A stretch of 64,000 bases of DNA from Streptomyces sp. Tu 3180. Lineage in GTDB: Bacteria; Actinomycetota; Actinomycetes; Streptomycetales; Streptomycetaceae. The notes below the pieces were generated by a model that made no database searches, had not been told where the DNA came from, and saw only the letters and a list, made by a program, of their open reading frames with translations. The DNA is taken from contig NZ_WOXS01000002.1 of the NCBI RefSeq assembly GCF_009852415.1, forward strand, positions 1,634,501-1,698,500, written 5' to 3'. The position numbers and the translations under genes are program-made. Positions 4,553 through 56,259 of the stretch are shown piece by piece (the first letter of the stretch is position 1; each line of letters begins with the position of its first letter).

Positions 4553-5841
4553 CTACTGGTTGCCGCAGGCGGGCACGGTCGGCGTGTCCAGCCAGGGCAG
4601 GTCGTGGCCCATCCGGTCCCGCTTGGTGCGCAGGTAGCGGAGGTTGTGCTCGCCCGCGGTGACGGGCATCGGCTCGCGTCCGGTGACCTCGATGCCGTGC
4701 CGGCCGAGCGCGTCGGACTTGTCGGGGTTGTTGGTCATCAGGCGGACGCCGCGCACCCCGAGGTCGGCGAGGATCTGCGCGCCGGCGCCGTAGTCGCGGG
4801 CGTCGGCGGGCAGGCCGAGTTCGAGGTTGGCGTCGAGGGTGTCCCGGCCGCGCTCCTGGAGCTCGTAGGCGCGCAGCTTGGACATCAGGCCGATGCCGCG
4901 CCCCTCGTGCCCGCGCAGGTAGACCACCACGCCCCGGCCCTCGGCCTGGATGCGGTCGAGGGAGGCGTCCAGCTGGGGCCCGCAGTCGCAGCGCTGGGAG
5001 CCGAAGACGTCGCCGGTGAGGCATTCGGAGTGGACGCGGACGAGGACGTCCTGGCCGTCGCCGATCTCGCCGTGGACGAGGGCGACGTGCTCCACGCCGT
5101 CGACGGTGGAGCGGTAGCCGTACGCCGTGAAGGTGCCGTGCGAGGTCGGCAGGCGGACCTCGGCCTCGCGGCGGACGGTGGGCTCGGAGCTGCGGCGGTA
5201 GGCGATCAGGTCCTCGATGGAGATGATCGTCAGGCCGTGCTTGCGGGCGAACGGGATCAGCTCGGGCAGCCGGAGCATGGTGCCGTCCTCGCCGGCGATC
5301 TCGACGATGGCGCCGGCCGGGCGCAGCCCGGCGAGGCGGGCGAGGTCGACGGCCGCCTCGGTGTGGCCGTTGCGCACGAGCACGCCGCCCTCGCGGGCGC
5401 GCAGCGGGAAGACGTGGCCGGGGCGGACGAAGTCGGCGGGTCCGGCGGTGCCGCCGGCCAGCAGCCGGAGCGTGGTGGCGCGGTCGGCGGCCGAGATGCC
5501 GGTGGTCACGCCGTGGGCGGCGGAGGCGTCCACGGAGACGGTGAACGCGGTCCGCATCGACTCGGTGTTGTCCTCCACCATCTGGGGGAGCCGCAGCCGG
5601 TCCAGCTCGTCGCCCTCCATGGGGGCGCAGATCAGACCGCGGCACTCGCTCATCATGAAGGCGACGATCTCGGGGTGGCCTTCTCGGCGGCGATGACGAG
5701 ATCGCCCTCGTTCTCGCGGTCCTCGTCGTCGACGACCACGACCGGGCGGCCGGCCGCGATGTCGGCGATGGCCTGTTCGACCGGGTCGAGGGCGAGGTCC
5801 TCGGCGCCGTCGGTGGGGTAGAGGACGGGTGCCGCGGTCAT
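4553..5841 (-). pseudogene. ribBA: ribBA (DHBP synthase / GTP cyclohydrolase II), disrupted by a one-base frameshift
   Basis: The gene should encode both entry enzymes of riboflavin synthesis. Reading from the ATG at 5841 gives the RibB N-terminus ([20 protein letters not shown]) and then runs out of frame to a TGA at 5653-5655 after 62 residues. The remaining protein, from YGVTTGIS-type and GHVFPLRA motifs to the RibA part (RCDCGPQLD zinc site, [10 protein letters not shown]), lies in the next frame and ends at 4553. One missing base at the four-G run 5672-5675 explains it: adding one restores [15 protein letters not shown] and a 429-residue enzyme. As sequenced, the 367-residue downstream frame opens with an ATG overlapping the upstream TGA, so GTP cyclohydrolase II could still be made, but the RibB site is split. 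Confidence 0.9.
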
Positions 5842-19586: not shown

Positions 19587-20375
19587 TCAGACGAGGGACC
19601 CGTAGAGGCCGGGGCGGCGGTCCTTCAGGTACGGGTTGTTCTCGCGGGAGGCGGCGAGGAGGACGGGGTCCGCGTCGGCGAGGACGAGCTCCTCCGCACG
19701 GCCGGCCCGGGTGCGGGCGACCCCGTCGGGTCCGGCGAGGGTGGACAGGCCCACGAACTCGAACTCGCCCTCGGGACCGACCCGGTTGACGTACGCGACG
19801 TACATCTGGTTCTCGAAGGCCCGCACCGGCACGACCGACTCGGCGACGAACTGGAACGGGTGCATCTGGGCCGTGGGCACCAGCAGGAGGTCGGTGCCGG
19901 CCAGGGCGTGGGCACGCACGTTCTCCGGGAACTCCACGTCGTAGCAGATCATCAGGCCGACGGTGAGGCCGTTCAGCTCGGCCTGCACGACCTGCCGGTC
20001 GCCCGGGGTGAAGTGGTCGCGCTCGAAGCAGCCGAAGAGGTGCGTCTTGCGGTAGTTCGCGAGGCGCGCGCCGTCGGCGGAGACGAGCTGGACGGAGTTG
20101 TGCACCGTGTCGCCGGCGCGTTCCGGGTAGGCGTAGGCGACGGCGATCCCGTGGCGGGCGGCCGTCTCGGCGACCGCGTCGGCCGCGTCGCCGTCGGCGG
20201 GTTCGGCGAGCCGGGCGATGTCGTCGCCGATCGCGTACCCGGTCAGGAACATCTCCGGGGTGACGAGCAGCCCGGCGCCCGCGGCGGCGGCGCGGCCGGC
20301 GGCCTCGTCGAGGACCTTGAGGTTCTCGGCGACGGATCCGGGCCGTCCGGAGCTCTGGAGCAGGGCGGTGCGCAT
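19587..20375 (-). CDS. davA: Nitrilase-superfamily amidase, probable 5-aminovaleramidase (DavA-like)
   Basis: The 262-residue carbon-nitrogen hydrolase has the full catalytic triad: E41 in TPEMFLTGY, K110 in NYRKTHLFG and C144 in MICYDVEFPEN. These motifs and the length match Pseudomonas DavA, which hydrolyses 5-aminovaleramide to 5-aminovalerate. The start is the ATG at 20373-20375 behind GAGGAAC. The davB-like gene follows after 44 bases, so the two form an operon converting lysine to 5-aminovalerate. No transaminase or dehydrogenase for the next steps (DavT/DavD) is in the window. Another amide substrate is possible. Confidence 0.85.
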   Translation of the reverse strand: MRTALLQSSGRPGSVAENLKVLDEAAGRAAAAGAGLLVTPEMFLTGYAIGDDIARLAEPADGDAADAVAETAARHGIAVAYAYPERAGDTVHNSVQLVSADGARLANYRKTHLFGCFERDHFTPGDRQVVQAELNGLTVGLMICYDVEFPENVRAHALAGTDLLLVPTAQMHPFQFVAESVVPVRAFENQMYVAYVNRVGPEGEFEFVGLSTLAGPDGVARTRAGRAEELVLADADPVLLAASRENNPYLKDRRPGLYGSLV

Positions 20376-20417
20376 GCGTGTTCCTCACCGGTACGCGGGG
20401 GTTCGGGGGCCAGATAG

Positions 20418-20515
20418 ACGGTACGGTCGGCCGGCTCGGCCGGACAAGGAGGAGCCGTTGCGCGCCGGTGAGCGGTTCGTTGCGTCCCGGCCGGGGTCGG
20501 CGGCGATTCGTTGCG
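20418..20515 (-). promoter_or_regulatory. Promoter of the amidase-monooxygenase operon with three CGCAACG boxes
   Basis: On the minus strand a plausible promoter is TTGTCC (20442-20447), 18 bases, TACCGT (20418-20423). Just upstream lie three copies of CGCAACG (plus-strand CGTTGCG) at 20456-20462, 20478-20484 and 20509-20515, spaced 22 and 31 bases. Two share the longer CGCAACGAA. The same heptamer is clustered three times upstream of the permease-Lrp operon. Position upstream of the -35 would fit an activator, possibly the Lrp/AsnC protein at 24957-25409. This is inference. Confidence 0.6.
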
Positions 20516-20565
20516 CGGCCCCCGCCGCACCGCGCACCCGCCCCGGATCGCGGGCCGGGGCGGGC

Positions 20566-20593
20566 GTCCCCCGCCGTACGGGAGGCGGGGGAC
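20566..20593 (-). terminator. Terminator-like hairpin after the MFS gene
   Basis: A 10-bp stem GTCCCCCGCC / GGCGGGGGAC with an 8-base loop begins 9 bases beyond the MFS stop on the minus strand. It isolates the MFS gene from the amidase promoter downstream. Confidence 0.6.
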
Positions 20594-20601
20594 CGGCGGC
20601 C

Positions 20602-21804
20602 TCACGGCCGTGTCCCGGCGGCCCGGGCCCGGGGCCCCGTGAGCAGCAGCGCCGCCGTCACCAGGTACGGCACCGCGAACACCGCGAAGGCGGTGCCGTG
20701 GGCGTTCCCCGAGGCGATCACCGCGTAGCCGCCGTAGACCGCGACCGTCGCCAGCTCCGTGCCCAGTCCCGCGACCGAGGTGAGGGTGGCGCGCCCGGTG
20801 CCCTCGATGCGCCGCTGGAGCCGGGCGTCGGCCAGCACGGTCGCCGCCTGGAAACCGCCGAAGGCGAGGGCGACGAGGGCGAGGGCCGCCGGGGTGCCGG
20901 CGGCCGAGCCGGCCGCCAGGGCGAGGCCGGCTCCGGCGAGCAGGACCGCGAGTCCCGTCGTGCCGAGGCGCTCGCCCTCCCCGGCGAGCAGGCTGCCGGC
21001 GGTGGCACCGGTCCAGATCAGCAGGAGCAGCCAGGGAACCGTCTGGTCGGCGACGCCGGTGCCCCGGACCAGCAGGGGCGTGTACTCGTCGAGGGCGCCC
21101 CACACGGCGCTCACGGCCGCGACGAGCAGCAGCGCCCCGCGCACCGACCGGTCGGCGCGGGCCTCGGCGAGTCCGGCGCGCAGGGTCGCCGTCCAGCCGT
21201 CGTGCCCGGCGGCCGGGGAGCGGTGTTCGGGGAAGCGGGTGGCCGTGGCCGCCGCCAGCAGGCACGCCAGCACGCTGGCGGCGCCGACGGCGGTGTGGCC
21301 GCCCCGGGCGAGCACGGGGCCGGCGAGTCCCATGGCCGCCATGACGGCGACCAGTCCGGCCGCGCGGGCCCGGCCCATGACCCGGGCGTAGCGGTCGGCC
21401 GCGTCGAGCCGTTCCAGCTCGTCGTGGACGAGTGCCTCCAGCGCGCCGCTGCCGAGCGCGCCGCCGGCGCCCCACAGGACGAAGCCGACCGCGAAGGCTC
21501 CGTACGACGGCAGCAGCACCCACAGGGCGAAGCCGGCGGCGGTGAGCAGCGGGCCGAGCCACAGCAGCAGCCGGCGGGAGACGGCGTCGGCCCAGGCGCC
21601 GGAGGGCACCTCCAGGGCCACGCCGGTGACCGACCAGAGGGCGAACAGGGAGGAGATCTGCCAGACCGTGAGCCCGGTGTCGCGGAACAGCAGCGCGTAC
21701 ACCGGGTAGAGCAGGACGAAGTCTTCGAGGAACGCGTAGGCGTACAGCGTGGTCGTCAGCCGTCGCACGCGGACGTCGGGCCCGCGCGTGGGCGTGAGAG
21801 TCAT
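20602..21804 (-). CDS. MFS transporter
   Basis: From the ATG at 21804 (preceded by GGGAAGG) the protein is 400 residues with about twelve hydrophobic segments and an MFS-type loop (VPSGAWADAVSRRLLLWLGPLL). The N-terminus MTLTPTRGPDVRVRRLTTTLYAYAF is cytoplasmic. It belongs to a poorly characterised actinobacterial MFS group. Placed between the amidase/monooxygenase operon and the glycosyltransferase unit, with a terminator behind it, it is likely monocistronic. Substrate unknown. Confidence 0.85.
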   Translation of the reverse strand: MTLTPTRGPDVRVRRLTTTLYAYAFLEDFVLLYPVYALLFRDTGLTVWQISSLFALWSVTGVALEVPSGAWADAVSRRLLLWLGPLLTAAGFALWVLLPSYGAFAVGFVLWGAGGALGSGALEALVHDELERLDAADRYARVMGRARAAGLVAVMAAMGLAGPVLARGGHTAVGAASVLACLLAAATATRFPEHRSPAAGHDGWTATLRAGLAEARADRSVRGALLLVAAVSAVWGALDEYTPLLVRGTGVADQTVPWLLLLIWTGATAGSLLAGEGERLGTTGLAVLLAGAGLALAAGSAAGTPAALALVALAFGGFQAATVLADARLQRRIEGTGRATLTSVAGLGTELATVAVYGGYAVIASGNAHGTAFAVFAVPYLVTAALLLTGPRARAAGTRP

Positions 21805-21968
21805 GAGGCCTTCCCGTAGGGGCGGTTCGGACACCGGACGTGGAGGACGTACGGCGCCCGAGGCGGCCCTCGGGAGGCGCGGCTGGTGGATCAATGTCGC
21901 CAGGTCATGACACCGATACTAGCCGGGCCGGACGGGGCCGGCCCCGTCTTTCCCGCACGGCCGGCCGC

Positions 21969-24148
21969 TCACGGCTCCCGGGCGGAGGGCTGGGGCGGCA
22001 GCACCACGTCCCCGCTGCGCTTGAGCCGTTGCCAGGGCAGCCGGTATCCGTTGACCGCGGTGAGGCACGCCTGGATGAGCACCAGGTACATCAGCTGGCG
22101 GTAGGCGATCTGCTGCAGCGGGAGCGCCCACAGGGGCCGCAGGCTCTCGCCGTCGAGGCGGAAGGCGTAGGCCGCGCAGGCGGCCTGCACGGCCAGCACG
22201 CCGGTCCACGCCAGCAGCGTGCCGAGCGGGTCGCCGAACACCAGGCCGTAGAGGGTCAGCAGGTCGATCAGCGGGGCGAGGAGGGGGGTGAGGATCTGGA
22301 AGACGGCCAGCAGCGGCAGGCCGAGGCGGCCGAAGCGGCCCGCGTGGCCGCGCTCGAACAGCGCGTGCCGGTGCTTCCACGCGGCCTGCATGGTGCCGTA
22401 GCTCCACCGGTAGCGCTGGCGCCACAGCTGCCGCGGCGTGGCCGGCGCCTCGGTCCAGGCGAGTGCGTCCTCGGCGTAGCGGATCTCCCACCCGGCCCGG
22501 TGGAGGGCCATGGTGATGTCGGTGTCCTCGGCGAGGGTGTCCCCGCTCATCATCCCGGCGTCCCGCAGGGCCGCGACGCGGAAGGCCCCACGGCGCCGGG
22601 GACGGTGGGCAGGCAGCGCAGCAGGTCGTACATGCGGCGGTCGAGGTTGAAGCCCATGACGTACTCGATGTGCTGCCACCGGCCGAGCAGGCTCCGGCGG
22701 TTGCCGACCTTGGCGTTCCCGGCGGTGGCGCCGACGGCGGGGTCGGCGAACGGCTGGACGAGGCGGCGGACGGTCGAGGGGGCGAAGACCGTGTCGGCGT
22801 CCAGCATCACGACCAGGTCGTGGGAGGCCCGCAGGACACCGGTGTTGAGGGCGGACGCCTTGCCGCCGTTCGGCCGGCGGACGACGGTGACCGACTGGAG
22901 GCCGAGTGACTCCGCGATGTCGGCGGTGCCGTCGTCGGAGCCGTCGTCCACGACGATGATCTCGACGGGATGGTCGCCGGCGGCGAGCGAGCGGAGCGTC
23001 TTGGCGATGCACAGCCTCTCGTTGCAGGCGGGGACGACGACGCTGACCGGCCGGGTGACGGGCCGGCCGGGGCCGGGGCGCGGGCGCCGGTGGGCGTGGT
23101 GGTGGGCGAGGACCGGCAGCAGCACGCACCGCGCGAGGACGAGCGCCCCGACGGCCAGCAGCAGCACGCCGACGACCGACACCACCGTCTGCGACACGGT
23201 CACGGCGGCCACGAACACCCGGCCCTTCCACAGGGTCGCGGTGTCGACGGGGCTGGTGAGGCTGTCGGCGCCGAGGAGGTCCGCGAGGGTGCTGAAGCGG
23301 TAGCCCTGGGCCTGGAGCCGGGGAATGAGGATCTCGAGCGCCTCGACGGTCTGCGACCGGTCCCCTCCCGCGTCGTGCAGGAGGACGACCGTTCCCCGGC
23401 CCGGCACGCTCGGCGTGGCCGCGTCGGCGATCGCCCGGGCGCCCGGCCGCTGCCAGTCCCGGGTGTCCTGGTCGATGAACGCCAGGACGTAGCCCTTGTC
23501 GCCCAGGTGCCGGGCGGCGGACCAGGCCGGCGCGTCCAGGGCGGAGGTGGTCGAGGAGTAGGGCATCCGCATGAGCGAGCTGTTGACGCCCGCGGCCCCG
23601 GCGAGGGCGAGCTGGGTCAGCGCCAGCTCGCGGTCGACGTCGCCCGTCGGCTGGGTGCTCAGGTCCCGGTGGGAGAAGGTGTGCACGCCGATCTCGTGGC
23701 CGGACCGGATCACCTCGCGCAGGACCCCGGGGTGGCGCACGGCCTGCTGGCCGGTGACGAAGAAGGTGCCGGGTGTGCCGTGGCGGTCCAGAACGGCCCG
23801 GACGCGGGGCGTCCAGACGGGGTCCGGGCCGTCGTCGAAGGTCAGGACCACCGTCCGGTCCGGTGCCCGGTAGGTGCTCGGGCGGCCACGGGTGAGGTCG
23901 ACGACCGGGCCGCCGCCGGTGACCTCCCGGGGGACGCCGGCGGTCGGCCGTCCGGTGTGCCCCTCCTGGTCGCCGGAGAAGTCACGGGTCGTGTACCCCT
24001 CGGCCAGGAGCACCGAGACGACGAGGGCCAGCAGGACGAGCGGAACGGTGACGCGGAAGCGGTGCCGGGGCGGCAGGGGTGCCCGGGCCCGCCGCGGACC
24101 GGGCGTCGTCGGTGGGGGGCGGACCGGCCGGTGGGGGCGCCGCCGCAT
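21969..24148 (-). pseudogene. Bifunctional polysaccharide deacetylase / GT2 glycosyltransferase, disrupted by a one-base frameshift
   Basis: Reading from the ATG at 24148 gives a membrane helix (33-50), an extracytoplasmic NodB deacetylase domain (TFDDGPDP at 103-110, HTFSHRDL at 156), a second helix (about 315-345) and the first half of a GT2 synthase (VVVPACNE, VDDGSDDGTAD, MLDADTVF at 448). The frame then shifts and stops at 22550. The next frame continues with AFRVAALRDAG, LAEDTDITMAL, QRYRWSYG and four membrane segments to 21969. One base missing at the C4 run 22586-22589 explains it; the restored protein is 726 residues. The architecture is that of S. coelicolor MatB, which makes a poly-GlcNAc-type surface polymer. 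As sequenced, the acceptor motifs are cut off. Confidence 0.88.
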
Positions 24149-24927
24149 CAGGGGACCCCGGCCGCCGGTGTGTCGCCGGTCGGGGAGGCGCCCGGGGCGT
24201 CCGGGACCTCGGACGGCGTCTCGGGGGCGGGCGCGGGCGGGGTCGAGGGCGGGGCGGGCTGCGGCGTTCCGGGCGGGGGCTCGGGTGCCGGCGGGCCGTC
24301 CGTCCCGGGGGCGGGCGGGTCGTCCGTTCCGGGAGCGGGCGGGGGCGGCGGCGGAGGGGCGGGGTCGCTTCCCGTGCCGGGCCCGGGAGCGGCCGGGTCG
24401 CCGGGGGCCGGAGCGGCGGGCGGCTCCGGCGAGGGCGGCGCCCCCGTCACGGGTGCCTCCGGTCCGGCCGGGGGCGCCGGCCCGCCGGTGGGCAGCTGGA
24501 CGCCGGGCGCGAGGAGCGGCGCTCCGGGAGTGAGGAGCGGGACGCCGGGCGGGCTCGGCGGGACGAGCAGCGGGACCGGCGGGGAGCCCGGGCCGGCCGC
24601 GGTCGTCGTGCCGTCGAGTCCCGGGCGGCCCGGACCGGTCGGGTCGCCGGGCAGCCGGGGCTCCTCGTCCGGGCTCCGCCGTTCCGGTGCGGACGGCGCC
24701 GCGAGGTCCGCGGGCAGCGGCGGCAGCATGGCCTCCGGCGCGAAGGGCGTCGCTCCCATCAGGCTCAGTCCCAGCACCGCCATGTACGCGGCCCCCAGTC
24801 CGGCCACGCCGTGTCCGGTGCGCCGGAGCACGCGCGCCCGCCGGCCGGAGGAGTCGACGAACACGGGGACGCCCGCATCGGTCGACGAGCCAATCCCTTT
24901 ATGTCCGGAATCAGCATGATGCAGCAT
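24148..24927 (-). CDS. Proline-rich membrane protein, partner of the deacetylase/glycosyltransferase
   Basis: The 259-residue protein has a short cytoplasmic head, one hydrophobic segment (about 38-60; GVAGLGAAYMAVLGLSLMGA) and a C-terminal tail of about 180 residues dominated by Pro, Gly and Ala, presumably extracellular and disordered. Its stop overlaps the start of the glycosyltransferase gene as ATGA, so the two are co-translated. A MatA-like accessory role in surface polysaccharide production is inferred only from this coupling. No enzymatic motif is seen. The low-complexity tail could vary in length between strains. Confidence 0.75.
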   Translation of the reverse strand: MLHHADSGHKGIGSSTDAGVPVFVDSSGRRARVLRRTGHGVAGLGAAYMAVLGLSLMGATPFAPEAMLPPLPADLAAPSAPERRSPDEEPRLPGDPTGPGRPGLDGTTTAAGPGSPPVPLLVPPSPPGVPLLTPGAPLLAPGVQLPTGGPAPPAGPEAPVTGAPPSPEPPAAPAPGDPAAPGPGTGSDPAPPPPPPPAPGTDDPPAPGTDGPPAPEPPPGTPQPAPPSTPPAPAPETPSEVPDAPGASPTGDTPAAGVP

Positions 24928-24956
24928 GCCGTCAGCGTACGCCGGAACGCATCCGC

Positions 24957-25409
24957 CTACGTGGGCGAGCCCGACGAGAACCGCCGCAGCAGCGGGGACA
25001 GCACCAGCACGGACTTGGTGCGCTCGACGAACGGCTCCCCGGCGATGCGCTCCAGGACCCGTTCGAAGTGGCGCATGTCGGAGGCGAAGACCTGGGCCAC
25101 CGCGTCCGCGTCGCCGGTGACGGTGGAGGCGGCCACGACCTCCTGGTAGCGCTCCAGGCCCCGCTGGATGGTCTCCGGGGAGGTGTTGCTGCGGCAGTAG
25201 ATCTCGACGAACCCCTCGGTCTCCCAGCCGAGGGCGGCCGGGTCCACCCGGACGGTGAATCCGGTGATGGCCCCGGTGGCGCGCAGCCGGTCCACGCGCC
25301 GTTTCACGGCGGGCGCGGACAGGCCGACCAGCTGGCCGATGTCCGCGTAGGAGCGGCGGGCGTCCTCGGCGAGGGCGTGCACGATGCGTTCGTCGAGATC
25401 GTTCAGCAC
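24957..25409 (-). CDS. Lrp/AsnC-family transcriptional regulator
   Basis: The start is taken as the GTG at 25407-25409, giving 150 residues starting MLNDLDERIVHAL, the standard N-terminus of the family; the ribosome site is weak. The helix-turn-helix spans about 20-41 (YADIGQLVGLSAPAVKRRVDRL) and the RAM effector domain about 64-140. Such proteins bind amino acids and act as octamers on helically phased sites. It lies 10 bases after the amino-acid permease gene in the same operon, which implies control of that permease and perhaps of the lysine-degradation operon that shares its upstream boxes. Confidence 0.92.
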   Translation of the reverse strand: MLNDLDERIVHALAEDARRSYADIGQLVGLSAPAVKRRVDRLRATGAITGFTVRVDPAALGWETEGFVEIYCRSNTSPETIQRGLERYQEVVAASTVTGDADAVAQVFASDMRHFERVLERIAGEPFVERTKSVLVLSPLLRRFSSGSPT

Positions 25410-25419
25410 TGCGGGTGGT

Positions 25420-26898
25420 TCACTTCGCTTCTGGTGTGGCCGGGGCGGCGAGCCGGGAGCGGCGGTAGCCGTACAGGAAGTAGAACACGATCCCGACGGC
25501 CATCCAGACACCGAAGACCACCCAGGTGATCGTGGACAGGCTGCCCATCATCCAGATACAGAACGCGAAGCCGAGGGCGGGCAGGACCGGCGACAGCGGC
25601 ACCCGGAAGGTGCGGGGCATGTCGGGACGGGTCCGGCGCAGCACCACGACGGCCACGTTGACCAGCGCGAAGGCGAACAGGGTGCCGATGCTGGTGGCGT
25701 CGGCGAGCTGGCCGAGCGGGATGGCGGCGGCCAGCACGCCGCAGAAGAGGGAGACGATCAGGGTGTTGGTGCGGGGCGTGCCGGTCTTCGGGCTGACCTT
25801 GGCGAACGCCCTGGGCACGAGCCCGTCCCGGGACATGGCGAACAGGATGCGGGTCTGGCCGTAGAGCACGGTTAGGACGACGCTGGCGATGGCGATGACG
25901 GCGCAGAACGCCAGCAGGGTGCCCCAGAAGGTCTGGCCGGTGACCTCGCGCATGATCTGGGCGAGCGCGGCCTCGGAGTCGGTGAAGTTCCGCCAGGGCT
26001 TGGCGCCGACGGCGACGGCGGCGACCAGGACGTACAGCGCGGTGATGATGGCGAGCGACAGCAGGATCGCGCGGGGCAGGTCGCGCTGGGCGTTCTTCGC
26101 CTCCTCACCGGCGGTGGAGGCGGCGTCGAAGCCGATGTACGAGAAGAAGAGCGTCGCCCCGGCCGCGCTGACGCCGGCCATGCCGAGCGGCATGAAGTTC
26201 TCGTAGTTGCCGGAGCGGAAGCCCTGGACGCCGATGGCGCAGAACAGCACCAGCGCGCCGATCTTCACGACGACCATGATCGTGTTGGCGCGGGCGGACT
26301 CGCGGGCGCCGCCCATCAGGAACGCCATGGCGAGCAGGACCACGATCAGCGCGGGCAGGTTGAAGACGCCGCCGTCGCCGGGCGGGGCGGACAGCGCGGC
26401 CGGGATGGTGACGCCGATGGTGCCGTCGAGCAGTTCGTTGAGGTACTCGCCCCAGCCGACGGCGACGGCGGCGACCGACACGCCGTACTCCAGCATCAGG
26501 CACCAGCCGCAGACCCAGGCGACCAGCTCGCCCATCGTTGCGTACGCATACGAGTACGAGGAGCCGGAGACCGGGATGGTGCCCGCCAGCTCGGCGTAGG
26601 AGAGGGCCGAGAAGAGGGCGGTCAGACCGGCGATGACGAAGGAGAGGGTGACGGCCGGACCGGCCTTGGGGACGGCCTCGCCGAGGACGACGAAAATGCC
26701 GGTGCCGAGGGTGGCGCCGATGCTGATCATGGTCAGCTGCCACAGCCCGAGGGAGCGGCGCAGCGAGCCCCCCTCGCCCTGGCCGCCCTCTGCGACCAGG
26801 CGTTCCACGGGCTTGCGACGCATCAGGCGCGCGCCGACGCCCGGGGCGGGCGGCGCGGTGGGCCTGCTGTTGTGCGGGGGTGCGCCTTGGTCGAGCAC
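25420..26898 (-). CDS. APC-superfamily amino acid permease
   Basis: The 492-residue protein has twelve membrane segments. The APC hallmark GATLGTGIFVVLGEAVPKAGPAV in helix 1 forms the unwound substrate site, and SALSYAELAGTIPVSGSSYSYAYATMGE follows in helices 2-3. It resembles the cationic amino acid transporter (CAT/YfnA) subgroup. It is first in a two-gene operon with the Lrp/AsnC regulator. Import of a basic amino acid such as lysine would fit the shared upstream boxes with the davA/davB-like operon, but this is inference. An earlier in-frame start does not seem needed. Confidence 0.92.
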   Translation of the reverse strand: MLDQGAPPHNSRPTAPPAPGVGARLMRRKPVERLVAEGGQGEGGSLRRSLGLWQLTMISIGATLGTGIFVVLGEAVPKAGPAVTLSFVIAGLTALFSALSYAELAGTIPVSGSSYSYAYATMGELVAWVCGWCLMLEYGVSVAAVAVGWGEYLNELLDGTIGVTIPAALSAPPGDGGVFNLPALIVVLLAMAFLMGGARESARANTIMVVVKIGALVLFCAIGVQGFRSGNYENFMPLGMAGVSAAGATLFFSYIGFDAASTAGEEAKNAQRDLPRAILLSLAIITALYVLVAAVAVGAKPWRNFTDSEAALAQIMREVTGQTFWGTLLAFCAVIAIASVVLTVLYGQTRILFAMSRDGLVPRAFAKVSPKTGTPRTNTLIVSLFCGVLAAAIPLGQLADATSIGTLFAFALVNVAVVVLRRTRPDMPRTFRVPLSPVLPALGFAFCIWMMGSLSTITWVVFGVWMAVGIVFYFLYGYRRSRLAAPATPEAK

Positions 26899-27349
26899 GC
26901 GCTGACTCCTTCGTCACTGCCGGTCTTCCGCGGCAGGGACCGACGGCGCCCCGCGACAGCCGGGACCCGTCGAGCGGGGTCCCCGCCGCACCACGTACAG
27001 CGCGTAACCCTACGAGGTCCGGCGTTGCTGCTGAAATGCAGCAACCTTGCGCACATCCGTAAGATCGTTGCGTTCCTCGCGCCGGGGCGGGTGTTCGTTG
27101 CGCCGGGGCTTTCGTCCGTTGCGCCCGGACCGGTCCGGCCGCGGGGCGGTCCGGCTCCGGGGCGGGCAGGTCCCCGGCCGGGAGGGTCCGCGGATCGGCG
27201 CGCCCGCGGCCCGGCCCGTCGGCGCCCCGGCGGACGGCGGCCCGCACGGCGGCGTCCGGATCCGGACACGCCGCGGCCCCCGTTCCTCCCGGCGGGCGGG
27301 ATCGACGGGGGCCGCGGGAGGACGGGGGCCGTGGGGAAGCCGGTCGCCG
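26899..27349. other. 451-bp intergenic region between the permease and guaB1
   Basis: No gene is seen here. The left part (26899-27123) carries the permease promoter region and its repeated boxes, described separately. The right part (27124-27349) is extremely GC-rich low-complexity sequence. It should hold the guaB1 terminator, for which I found no single convincing stem. Confidence 0.6.
27007..27123 (-). promoter_or_regulatory. Promoter/operator region of the permease-Lrp operon
   Basis: On the minus strand a TAGGGT -10 (27007-27012) is preceded by a perfect 7-bp inverted repeat, TTGCTGC-N6-GCAGCAA (27025-27044), covering the -35 position. Further upstream are three copies of CGCAACG at 27066-27072, 27096-27102 and 27117-27123, spaced 30 and 21 bases, close to three and two helical turns. 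Lrp-type proteins bind such phased repeats. The local AT-richness also marks a regulatory region. Confidence 0.62.
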
Positions 27350-28834
<1,485 letters not shown>

Positions 28835-55153: not shown

Positions 55154-56259
55154 CTAGAGCGCGAGCAGCTCCTTGGTCGTGATGGTGAGTAGCTCGGGTC
55201 CGCCGTCCGCCTCGGGGCGTACGACGAGCGTGTCATCGATCCGGACACCACCCCGGCCCGGGAGGTGGACCCCCGGTTCGACGGTGACCGGCACGCAAGC
55301 GTCCAGTTTACCCATGGCCGCAGGGGTCAGCCGAGGGTCCTCGTCGATTTCGAGTCCGACGCCGTGCCCCGTGAGGACGGGGAGGGCGTCGGCGTACCCC
55401 GCGGAGTCCAGCACCTGGCGTGCCGCGCGGTCCACGTCGCGGCAGGCGGCGCCCGGCACCAGGGACTCCCGCCCGGCGCGCTGGGCGGAGAAGACGAGGT
55501 CGTACAGCTCTATCTGCCAGTCCGCGGGGCCGTGCCGATGACGAAGGTGCGGCCGATCTCGCAGCGGTAGCCCCGGTAGGTGGCGCCGAGGCAGACGGAG
55601 AGGAAGTCGCCCTCCTCGACCCGGCGGTCGGTGGGCCGGTGGCCCGGCCGCCCGGCGTTCGGGCCGGTGGCCACGGAGGTGGGGAAGGCGGGGCCGTCGG
55701 CGCCGTGGTCGACGAGGCGGCGCTCCAGCTCCAGGGCGAGGTGACGTTCGGTGCGGCCGACCAGGATGGACTCCAGCAGCTCGCCGAGGGCCTGGTCGGC
55801 GATCTCCGCGCCGATGCGCAGACAGGAGATCTCCTCCTCGTCCTTCACCACCCGGAGCTGTTCGACCGCGCAGCCGACGCCCGCCAGGCGCAGCCCGGGG
55901 GCGGCCGAGCGGACGGCGCGGTGCCGGGTCACGGTGAGGTGGTGCTCCTCGACGGCGAGGGAGTCGGCGCCCTGGGCGGCGGCGAGAGCGGCCGCCGCGA
56001 CGGCGGCGTCACCGCCGGTCCCGGGCACGACGTGCACGCGCAGCGCCTCGTCGGGCCGGGCCTGCGGTGCCCGGTCGTCGGGCGGACCGGCGCACACCAG
56101 CACGTCCTCGGTCCTGCCCAGCAGCAGCACGGCGTCCTCGGGGGCGGTACCCGCGAGGTAGCGCACATTGGCGGGCCGGGACACCAGCGCCGCCGCGCTG
56201 CCGCCCGCGTTGCAGCATTCCCGTACCCGCGTCCGGCGGACCGCGTACACCTCTGACAT
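55154..56259 (-). pseudogene. pepQ: Xaa-Pro peptidase-like protein (M24B), disrupted by a one-base frameshift
   Basis: Reading from the ATG at 56257-56259 gives the creatinase-like N-terminal domain and the start of the pita-bread domain to RCEIGRTFVIGTAP, then runs out of frame and stops at 55510. The next frame continues ([50 protein letters not shown]) to 55154. One missing base in TCCGCGGGGC (55521-55530) accounts for the break; the restored protein is 368 residues. Even restored, metal ligands are unusual: Cys in SVCLG for the first Asp, Glu in RCEIGRT for the second, Asp in RIDDT for the last Glu; His and the middle Glu remain. Peptidase activity is therefore uncertain. Confidence 0.85.

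Follow-up and report, generated by a model that had tools for sequence, protein, structure and literature searches.

The closest described systems are the matAB genes of S. coelicolor and S. lividans (SCO2963-SCO2962 and SLI_3306a-SLI_3306). They are two translationally coupled genes encoding a membrane protein, MatA, and a MatB protein with an outer CE4 domain and a cytosolic, PgaC-like GT2 domain (PMC4391728, PMC5972031). In the mat locus of S. coelicolor, matB is followed by the acyltransferase gene SCO2961 (PMC4391728, PMC5972031), and the product of canonical MatAB was identified as PNAG (PMC5972031). A GT2 synthase of the PgaC/IcaA kind, an N-deacetylase and a membrane partner also make up the core of icaADBC in Staphylococcus and pgaABCD in E. 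coli. The pair of genes analysed here shares these parts with both kinds of system.

Organization of the pair in the window

The window, which is the whole stretch of 64,000 nucleotides analysed, carries the pair on its minus strand. The upstream ORF (24148..24927, -) encodes a MatA-like protein of 259 aa, recognized by the motif common to MatA homologues. Its short N-terminal part bears the PVFVDSSGRRAR..RR motif and is followed by one hydrophobic segment and a proline-rich tail, in which 36% of the residues beyond the hydrophobic segment are proline. No family was found in this protein by a Pfam and NCBIfam scan at E 0.001. The ATG of matB overlaps the stop codon of matA (TGATG). The same one-base overlap was seen for 15 of the 17 MatA genes examined in the clade described below, the window included; the exceptions are L045, which has a run of N, and L012. 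In L012 (genome G027) the nearest matB start lies 65 nt from the matA stop, perhaps through another one-base slip.

The MatB-like gene is divided over two frames. Its first part (22550..24148, -; 532 aa), identified by Pfam and by its translation, comprises an N-terminal membrane helix, a NodB/CE4 domain, a membrane helix and the first half of the GT2 domain, the helices being assigned from the predicted model of an orthologue, L040. The second part (21969..22589, -; about 205 aa), identified by PF13632 and PF13641, lies in another frame and holds the TED and QxxRW motifs of GT2 and the C-terminal helices. The Pfam domains of the NodB-GT2 gene are Polysacc_deac_1 and Glycos_transf_2. TFDDG, HTFSH, RMPY, DTRDW and LLHD, which we take to be the CE4 motifs, are visible in the translation. 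VVDDGS and LDADT, presumably the corresponding GT2 motifs, are in the first part, and the catalytic motif set is thus divided over the two frames.

An earlier note on this DNA had proposed a coupled pair of a proline-rich single-pass membrane protein and a NodB-GT2 fusion of the MatAB type. The overlap on the minus strand confirms the coupling, and the 259-aa ORF agrees with the membrane protein, its one hydrophobic segment making a single pass probable. The fusion stands as far as the presence and order of both domains are concerned; it does not stand as a single ORF from 24148 to 21969, as the frame of the ATG stops at 22550. The MatAB-type assignment is upheld by the NodB and GT2 domains, the upstream MatA and the likeness of the GT2 domain to PgaC/IcaA.

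An Lrp/AsnC-family regulator gene, identified by Pfam (24957..25511, -), ends 29 nt before matA, and an amino-acid permease gene (25420..26898, -) overlaps the lrp ORF; the two possibly form one transcription unit. Downstream of the pair lies a gene for an MFS transporter (20602..21804, -), also identified by Pfam. No Rfam match up to E 0.1 was obtained over 20000-28000. A scan of 20500-27400 with the sigma-70 consensus, which serves poorly for Streptomyces, found no promoter-like site; two terminator-like sites in the same interval fall at 27071-27091, outside the pair.

Compared with MatAB of S. coelicolor, the window pair is at another site, lacks an SCO2961-like neighbour, has a MatA tail richer in proline and has a matB whose frame is broken in this assembly. 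Likeness to the S. coelicolor locus was drawn via the canonical-type copy of the same genome. Unlike icaADBC and pgaABCD, the window pair has synthase and deacetylase in the order of a fusion, spread over two frames in this assembly, with no IcaC-like gene nearby and no family match for MatA.

Copy number, clade and insertion site

The genome (G000) has three MatA-MatB pairs. MatB-like genes were found at C2:1657053, 3366985 and 4805547, the remaining matches covering one domain or part. Three MatA domains were detected at E 2e-24 or better (the next match was at 0.13), one upstream of each MatB. The earlier note had left open whether the window pair was the only system of the strain or a second one. 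The whole-genome search rejects the former option; the latter is right in that the pair is an extra copy and wrong in the number, the pair being one of three and not the canonical one.

L009 (C2:3366985) is the copy of canonical type: an IcaC-like acyltransferase gene lies downstream of it and smpB upstream. The latter is presumably SCO2965, which we take to stand beside the canonical mat locus. The window pair does not have this layout, being at a different site with no acyltransferase found beside it. Since L009 has the layout of the studied mat locus, the window pair is, judged by sequence, an extra paralogue of the canonical mat genes. The MatA motif is common to both copies, and their MatB proteins are 52% identical. 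Each of the eight genomes of the clade that were examined (G000, G026, G027 and a further five) carries a canonical-type copy, and those of the seven genomes other than G000 are 80-93% identical to L009. The third pair, L010, likewise has the MatA motif directly upstream, a NodB-GT2 fusion and a PgaC-like GT2 domain. It differs from the window pair in belonging to its own clade, in its short MatA tail (59 residues) and in having an acyltransferase gene downstream. L010 is flanked by a CofH/MqnC-type radical SAM gene and an FAD-dependent oxidoreductase gene.

The MatAB family itself is already known; new here are the number of copies, the clade and the motif in MatA. Among the openly accessible papers listed, none was seen to describe more than one mat pair per genome, or this clade; PMC6629963, in its available part, does not concern mat copies. 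Pellets hamper industrial Streptomyces fermentations, and matAB deletion has been used to build dispersed strains (PMC12173525). In strains with two or three MatAB pairs, all pairs need considering in such designs.

To define the MatA motif, the pattern P[VI][FY]VDx[STA]GRR was applied upstream of MatB in 123 loci. It was found in 97 of them; many of the 26 unmatched loci have short flanks. Two positions outside the search pattern are nearly fixed, Arg15 (97/97) and Gly18 (95/97). A profile built from 22 segments and run over 61 genomes gave 47 domains in 30 genomes, of which 43 were directly upstream of a MatB-like gene. MatA was present in 30 of 31 MatB-bearing genomes, and the other 30 genomes, which gave no MatB match, have none. 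The four exceptions are in G028 and G040, with MatB on a different contig, and in G013 and G024, where MatA-type domains (G013:C1:5118484 and G024:C18:21670) have no MatB-like match listed beside them. MatA was absent upstream of 9 of 52 MatB-like loci. With this motif MatA gains a sequence signature; according to the available part of PMC5972031, no known domain had been found in the protein. The proline content of the MatA tail has a median of 34% in the window clade and 20% in other MatA proteins.

A tree of 121 rows was built on positions 56-521 of the window matB. The window and 17 other loci form a clade of 18 with a support of 1.0, and L120 groups with this clade at 0.79. Nine clade loci adjoin the same MFS gene (the window, L012, L040, L041, L042, L047, L049, L052 and L060), with lrp and the permease gene ahead of the pair where flanks allow. 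The other nine (L011, L043-L046, L048, L050, L051 and L054) have none of the permease, lrp and MFS markers, and the five of them inspected stand in at least three different neighbourhoods (L046, L048 and L054; L050; L051). Among 121 genomes of the genus, 73 gave a match at E 1e-150 or better; identity reached at least 75% in three, and the next was at 58%.

The site itself is found empty in four relatives (L185, L187, L189 and L190), in which the MFS gene comes immediately after lrp; one of these genomes, G026, has a clade copy elsewhere. The gene next to lrp was matA in two of 28 lrp loci (this genome and G027) and the MFS gene in four. A carbon-nitrogen hydrolase gene within 1.5 kb was seen in 10 of the 28, and none of the markers was downstream in 12. 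Occupied and empty sites alike retain the stretch that precedes the MFS gene. Given this preservation and the adjacency of lrp and the MFS gene in the four relatives, the simplest reading is that the MatAB pair was inserted between the two genes, with lrp at the upstream edge of the insertion.

Two further features of this spot were observed. In L235 (G013) and L236 (G007), the interval between lrp and the MFS unit holds 6-7 kb of other genes, so that the spot seems to be a recurrent insertion site; those of G013 include HAD-hydrolase, ABC-transporter and GntR/UTRA regulator genes. Ahead of the MFS gene, at 21891-21908 (-), this unit carries a conserved five-codon ORF, ATGACCTGGCGACATTGA (MTWRH stop). 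It is preceded, at a distance of 7 nt, by TAGTAT in the window and by TAGCAT, TACCAT and similar hexamers elsewhere. The ORF is followed by a strongly folding leader (z -3.7) and is conserved irrespective of the presence of matAB. Eight of 46 genomes carry it, each in a single exact copy, and it has no Rfam match. One possibility is that it serves the transporter as a leaderless leader-peptide attenuator.

The frame break in matB

The frame opened at the matB ATG (24148) ends at 22550 after 532 codons, and the remainder of the gene is in another frame, at 21969-22586. The break is located at a run of four G (22586..22589, -), between the DxD and TED motifs of GT2, where the frame of the relatives requires one extra base. 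The two halves overlap by one base in the window, and all 111 comparison loci (L009-L119; some genomes are possibly present in both collections) are in frame with a gap of 0. The junction reads GTG GGG CC in the window and GT[GC] GG[GTC] GC[CG] in 16 clade members, and the frame is open across it in all 17 other clade members, L051 included. The 15-base junction word was present in one of 139 fetched loci, L001, which is the window locus itself. A conserved or programmed frameshift as a shared feature is thereby ruled out.

The first part of the gene is 72-86% identical to the 17 other clade members, far beyond chance, and the second part is 84-91% identical to the C-terminal part of clade members. 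The dN/dS of the C-terminal part was 0.18-0.34 against seven orthologues and lay below that of the N-terminal part in 7 of 7 comparisons, which makes an old pseudogene unlikely. Against L040 the values were 0.25 after the break and 0.28 before it, both halves being similarly constrained.

To place the break in its surroundings, a 464-kb region of G000 that includes the window was scanned for frameshifts against 500 kb of a relative, G027. Twelve rows were flagged among 284 orthologues; seven were dismissed by eye as 5'-end, intergenic or antisense artefacts, and five internal breaks were retained, every one of which lacks a single base at a run of G or C. Besides matB they affect the M24 peptidase gene (55525-55531, about 55527, -) and the N-terminal part of ribBA (about 5671-5674, -) within the window, and, outside it, the P-loop of ruvB (C2 about 1720106) and a gene for an AMP-binding enzyme (C2 about 1577532), the identities of these genes being taken from Pfam. 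As its ORF stands, ribBA has a DHBP-synthase domain without the first 41 model positions. For matB and ribBA we infer the loss of one base from a run of five, since the relative uses other codons. The reverse scan flagged 8 rows in 274 orthologues of G027 against G000, several of them single bases at runs; this is a raw count, whereas the five breaks of G000 are those left after sorting by eye. As G027 also shows flagged breaks, they are not peculiar to G000, and the scan by itself cannot separate error from mutation. Five-base C/G runs number 249 per 100 kb in G000 and 236 in G027, with no genome-wide shortage of runs visible.

An assembly slip is the probable cause of the break, and likelier than a pseudogene, because similar one-base breaks affect ruvB, ribBA and two other genes nearby. 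The simultaneous loss of ruvB and ribBA would be improbable in a healthy strain, and a long-read assembly of a Streptomyces genome needed 205 indel corrections, nearly all of them at G or C homopolymers (PMC4832174). The nearby breaks and these homopolymer corrections weigh against a genuine break, which would leave this copy dead in the strain and matB-2 a young pseudogene, tolerated through the two remaining pairs or selected by a culture favouring less aggregation. We regard such a loss as rather unlikely. It would fit the absence of the base from the assembly at a spot that is intact in every comparison locus, the presence of two other MatAB pairs in the genome, and the breaks flagged in G027, which may partly be real. 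The non-pelleting S. lividans PM01 arose by a one-base deletion in matA (PMC4391728), which makes a genuine frameshift in a mat gene plausible. The C-terminal half of matB shows no relaxation, although a very recent loss would not show it either. A one-base back-slip of the ribosome on GGGG, at GTG GGG CCT, would restore the frame of the relatives and give full-length MatB from the existing sequence; as no comparison locus uses such a shift, we consider it highly improbable.

Synthase type and proposed product

The intact clade orthologue L040, in which a single chain holds the NodB/CE4 and GT2 domains, was used to classify the synthase; the two halves of the window gene likewise have PgaC/IcaA as their closest GT2 model. 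Its GT2 domain scored 176 bits with the PgaC_IcaA model, 102 with MftF, 85 with NodC and 60 with CelA; the canonical-type MatB, L009, scored 192, 101, 63 and 68 bits, respectively. Both miss the equivalog cut-off of 422 of PgaC_IcaA (TIGR03937), so that by family model the likeness to PgaC/IcaA stands and equivalog membership does not. The earlier note had named a closer match to cellulose- or hyaluronan-type synthases as evidence against its assignment. Among the family models compared, which included CelA and no hyaluronan-synthase model, PgaC/IcaA is the best and CelA is far lower.

Structural and sequence comparisons were less specific. The predicted model of L040 MatB (24 sequences, mean pLDDT 80) shows a membrane helix, the CE4 part, a long helix, the GT2 domain and a helical bundle, in this order. 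The CE4 part resembles a GlcNAc deacetylase (Z 25), and the synthase part resembles processive synthases. PcManGT and hyaluronan synthase lead its fold neighbours, the latter with a Z of 26.8 as against 21.6 for BcsA. No PgaC/IcaA structure was among the best 50 rows of each fold search, and the fold therefore cannot decide between likeness to hyaluronan synthase and to PgaC. A PDB sequence search was not decisive: within E 0.1 the frame of the C-terminal part matched three different sequences, each of them a cellulose synthase at about 4e-7, and the first part gave deacetylases and then weaker GT2 matches including hyaluronan synthase.

The product of the window-type MatAB is most likely an accessory PNAG-like adhesion polymer, as suggested by the family models. 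The sequence does not reveal how this polymer is linked or substituted. A polymer other than PNAG, such as another beta-linked amino-sugar chain (for instance a chitin-like one that is deacetylated afterwards) or one resembling hyaluronan, appears doubtful. The resemblance of the CE4 part to the NodB, PdaB and PgdA models, which represent enzymes of 1,4-linked chains, would suit it, as would the hyaluronan and chitin synthases among the fold neighbours and the limited identity between the paralogue and the canonical-type copy. Against it, PgaC_IcaA outscores every other GT2 model by over 70 bits, and canonical MatB has the same CE4 likeness yet yields a dispersin B-sensitive polymer (PMC5972031).

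For the PNAG-like product we propose the following route. The cytosolic GT2 domain of MatB would polymerise N-acetylglucosamine, and the chain would pass outward through the membrane helices of MatB itself, according to the predicted topology. The outward-facing CE4 domain would then remove part of the acetyl groups, which would make the polymer partly cationic and adhesive. By analogy with the part suggested for IcaD with IcaA, the membrane-proximal PVFVDxSGRR segment of MatA may assist the synthase, and the proline-rich stalk may extend into the wall. The pair appears to have been inserted behind the permease/lrp unit in the lineage of the strain, and co-expression with that unit may follow. 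Taken as a whole, an accessory paralogous pair, matAB-2, that makes a PNAG-like polymer and whose matB break is most likely a slip is an explanation in which we have good confidence.

A search for an acyltransferase-3 gene around the 18 clade loci was negative for every one, while six of six controls were positive, and 90 of the 103 other tree rows have one. Thirteen of the 103 rows outside the clade also show none, five of them (L059, L062, L091, L095 and L118) with at least 3.8 kb downstream; the absence is thus not unique to the clade. Since no IcaC-like gene was found beside the pair, its product may well be free of O-acyl groups, barring an acyltransferase that acts in trans from another locus. 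Only tentatively, we extend this to a relocatable two-gene glycan module without an adjacent IcaC-type partner, which might make a non-O-acylated polymer and, in one lineage, render hyphal adhesion responsive to amino-acid supply through the permease/Lrp unit. Whether the IcaC-like protein serves in PNAG export or in acylation only was called outstanding in PMC9558356, and strains of the clade bear on this question as natural carriers of a pair without an IcaC-like neighbour.

The opposite arrangement was observed in L073, L077 and L120. Their MatB proteins have the same CE4 and GT2 core as that of the window and, in addition, a C-terminal acyltransferase-3 domain in the same ORF. With lengths of 1142, 1150 and at least 1023 aa, they are in effect IcaB, IcaA and IcaC fused.
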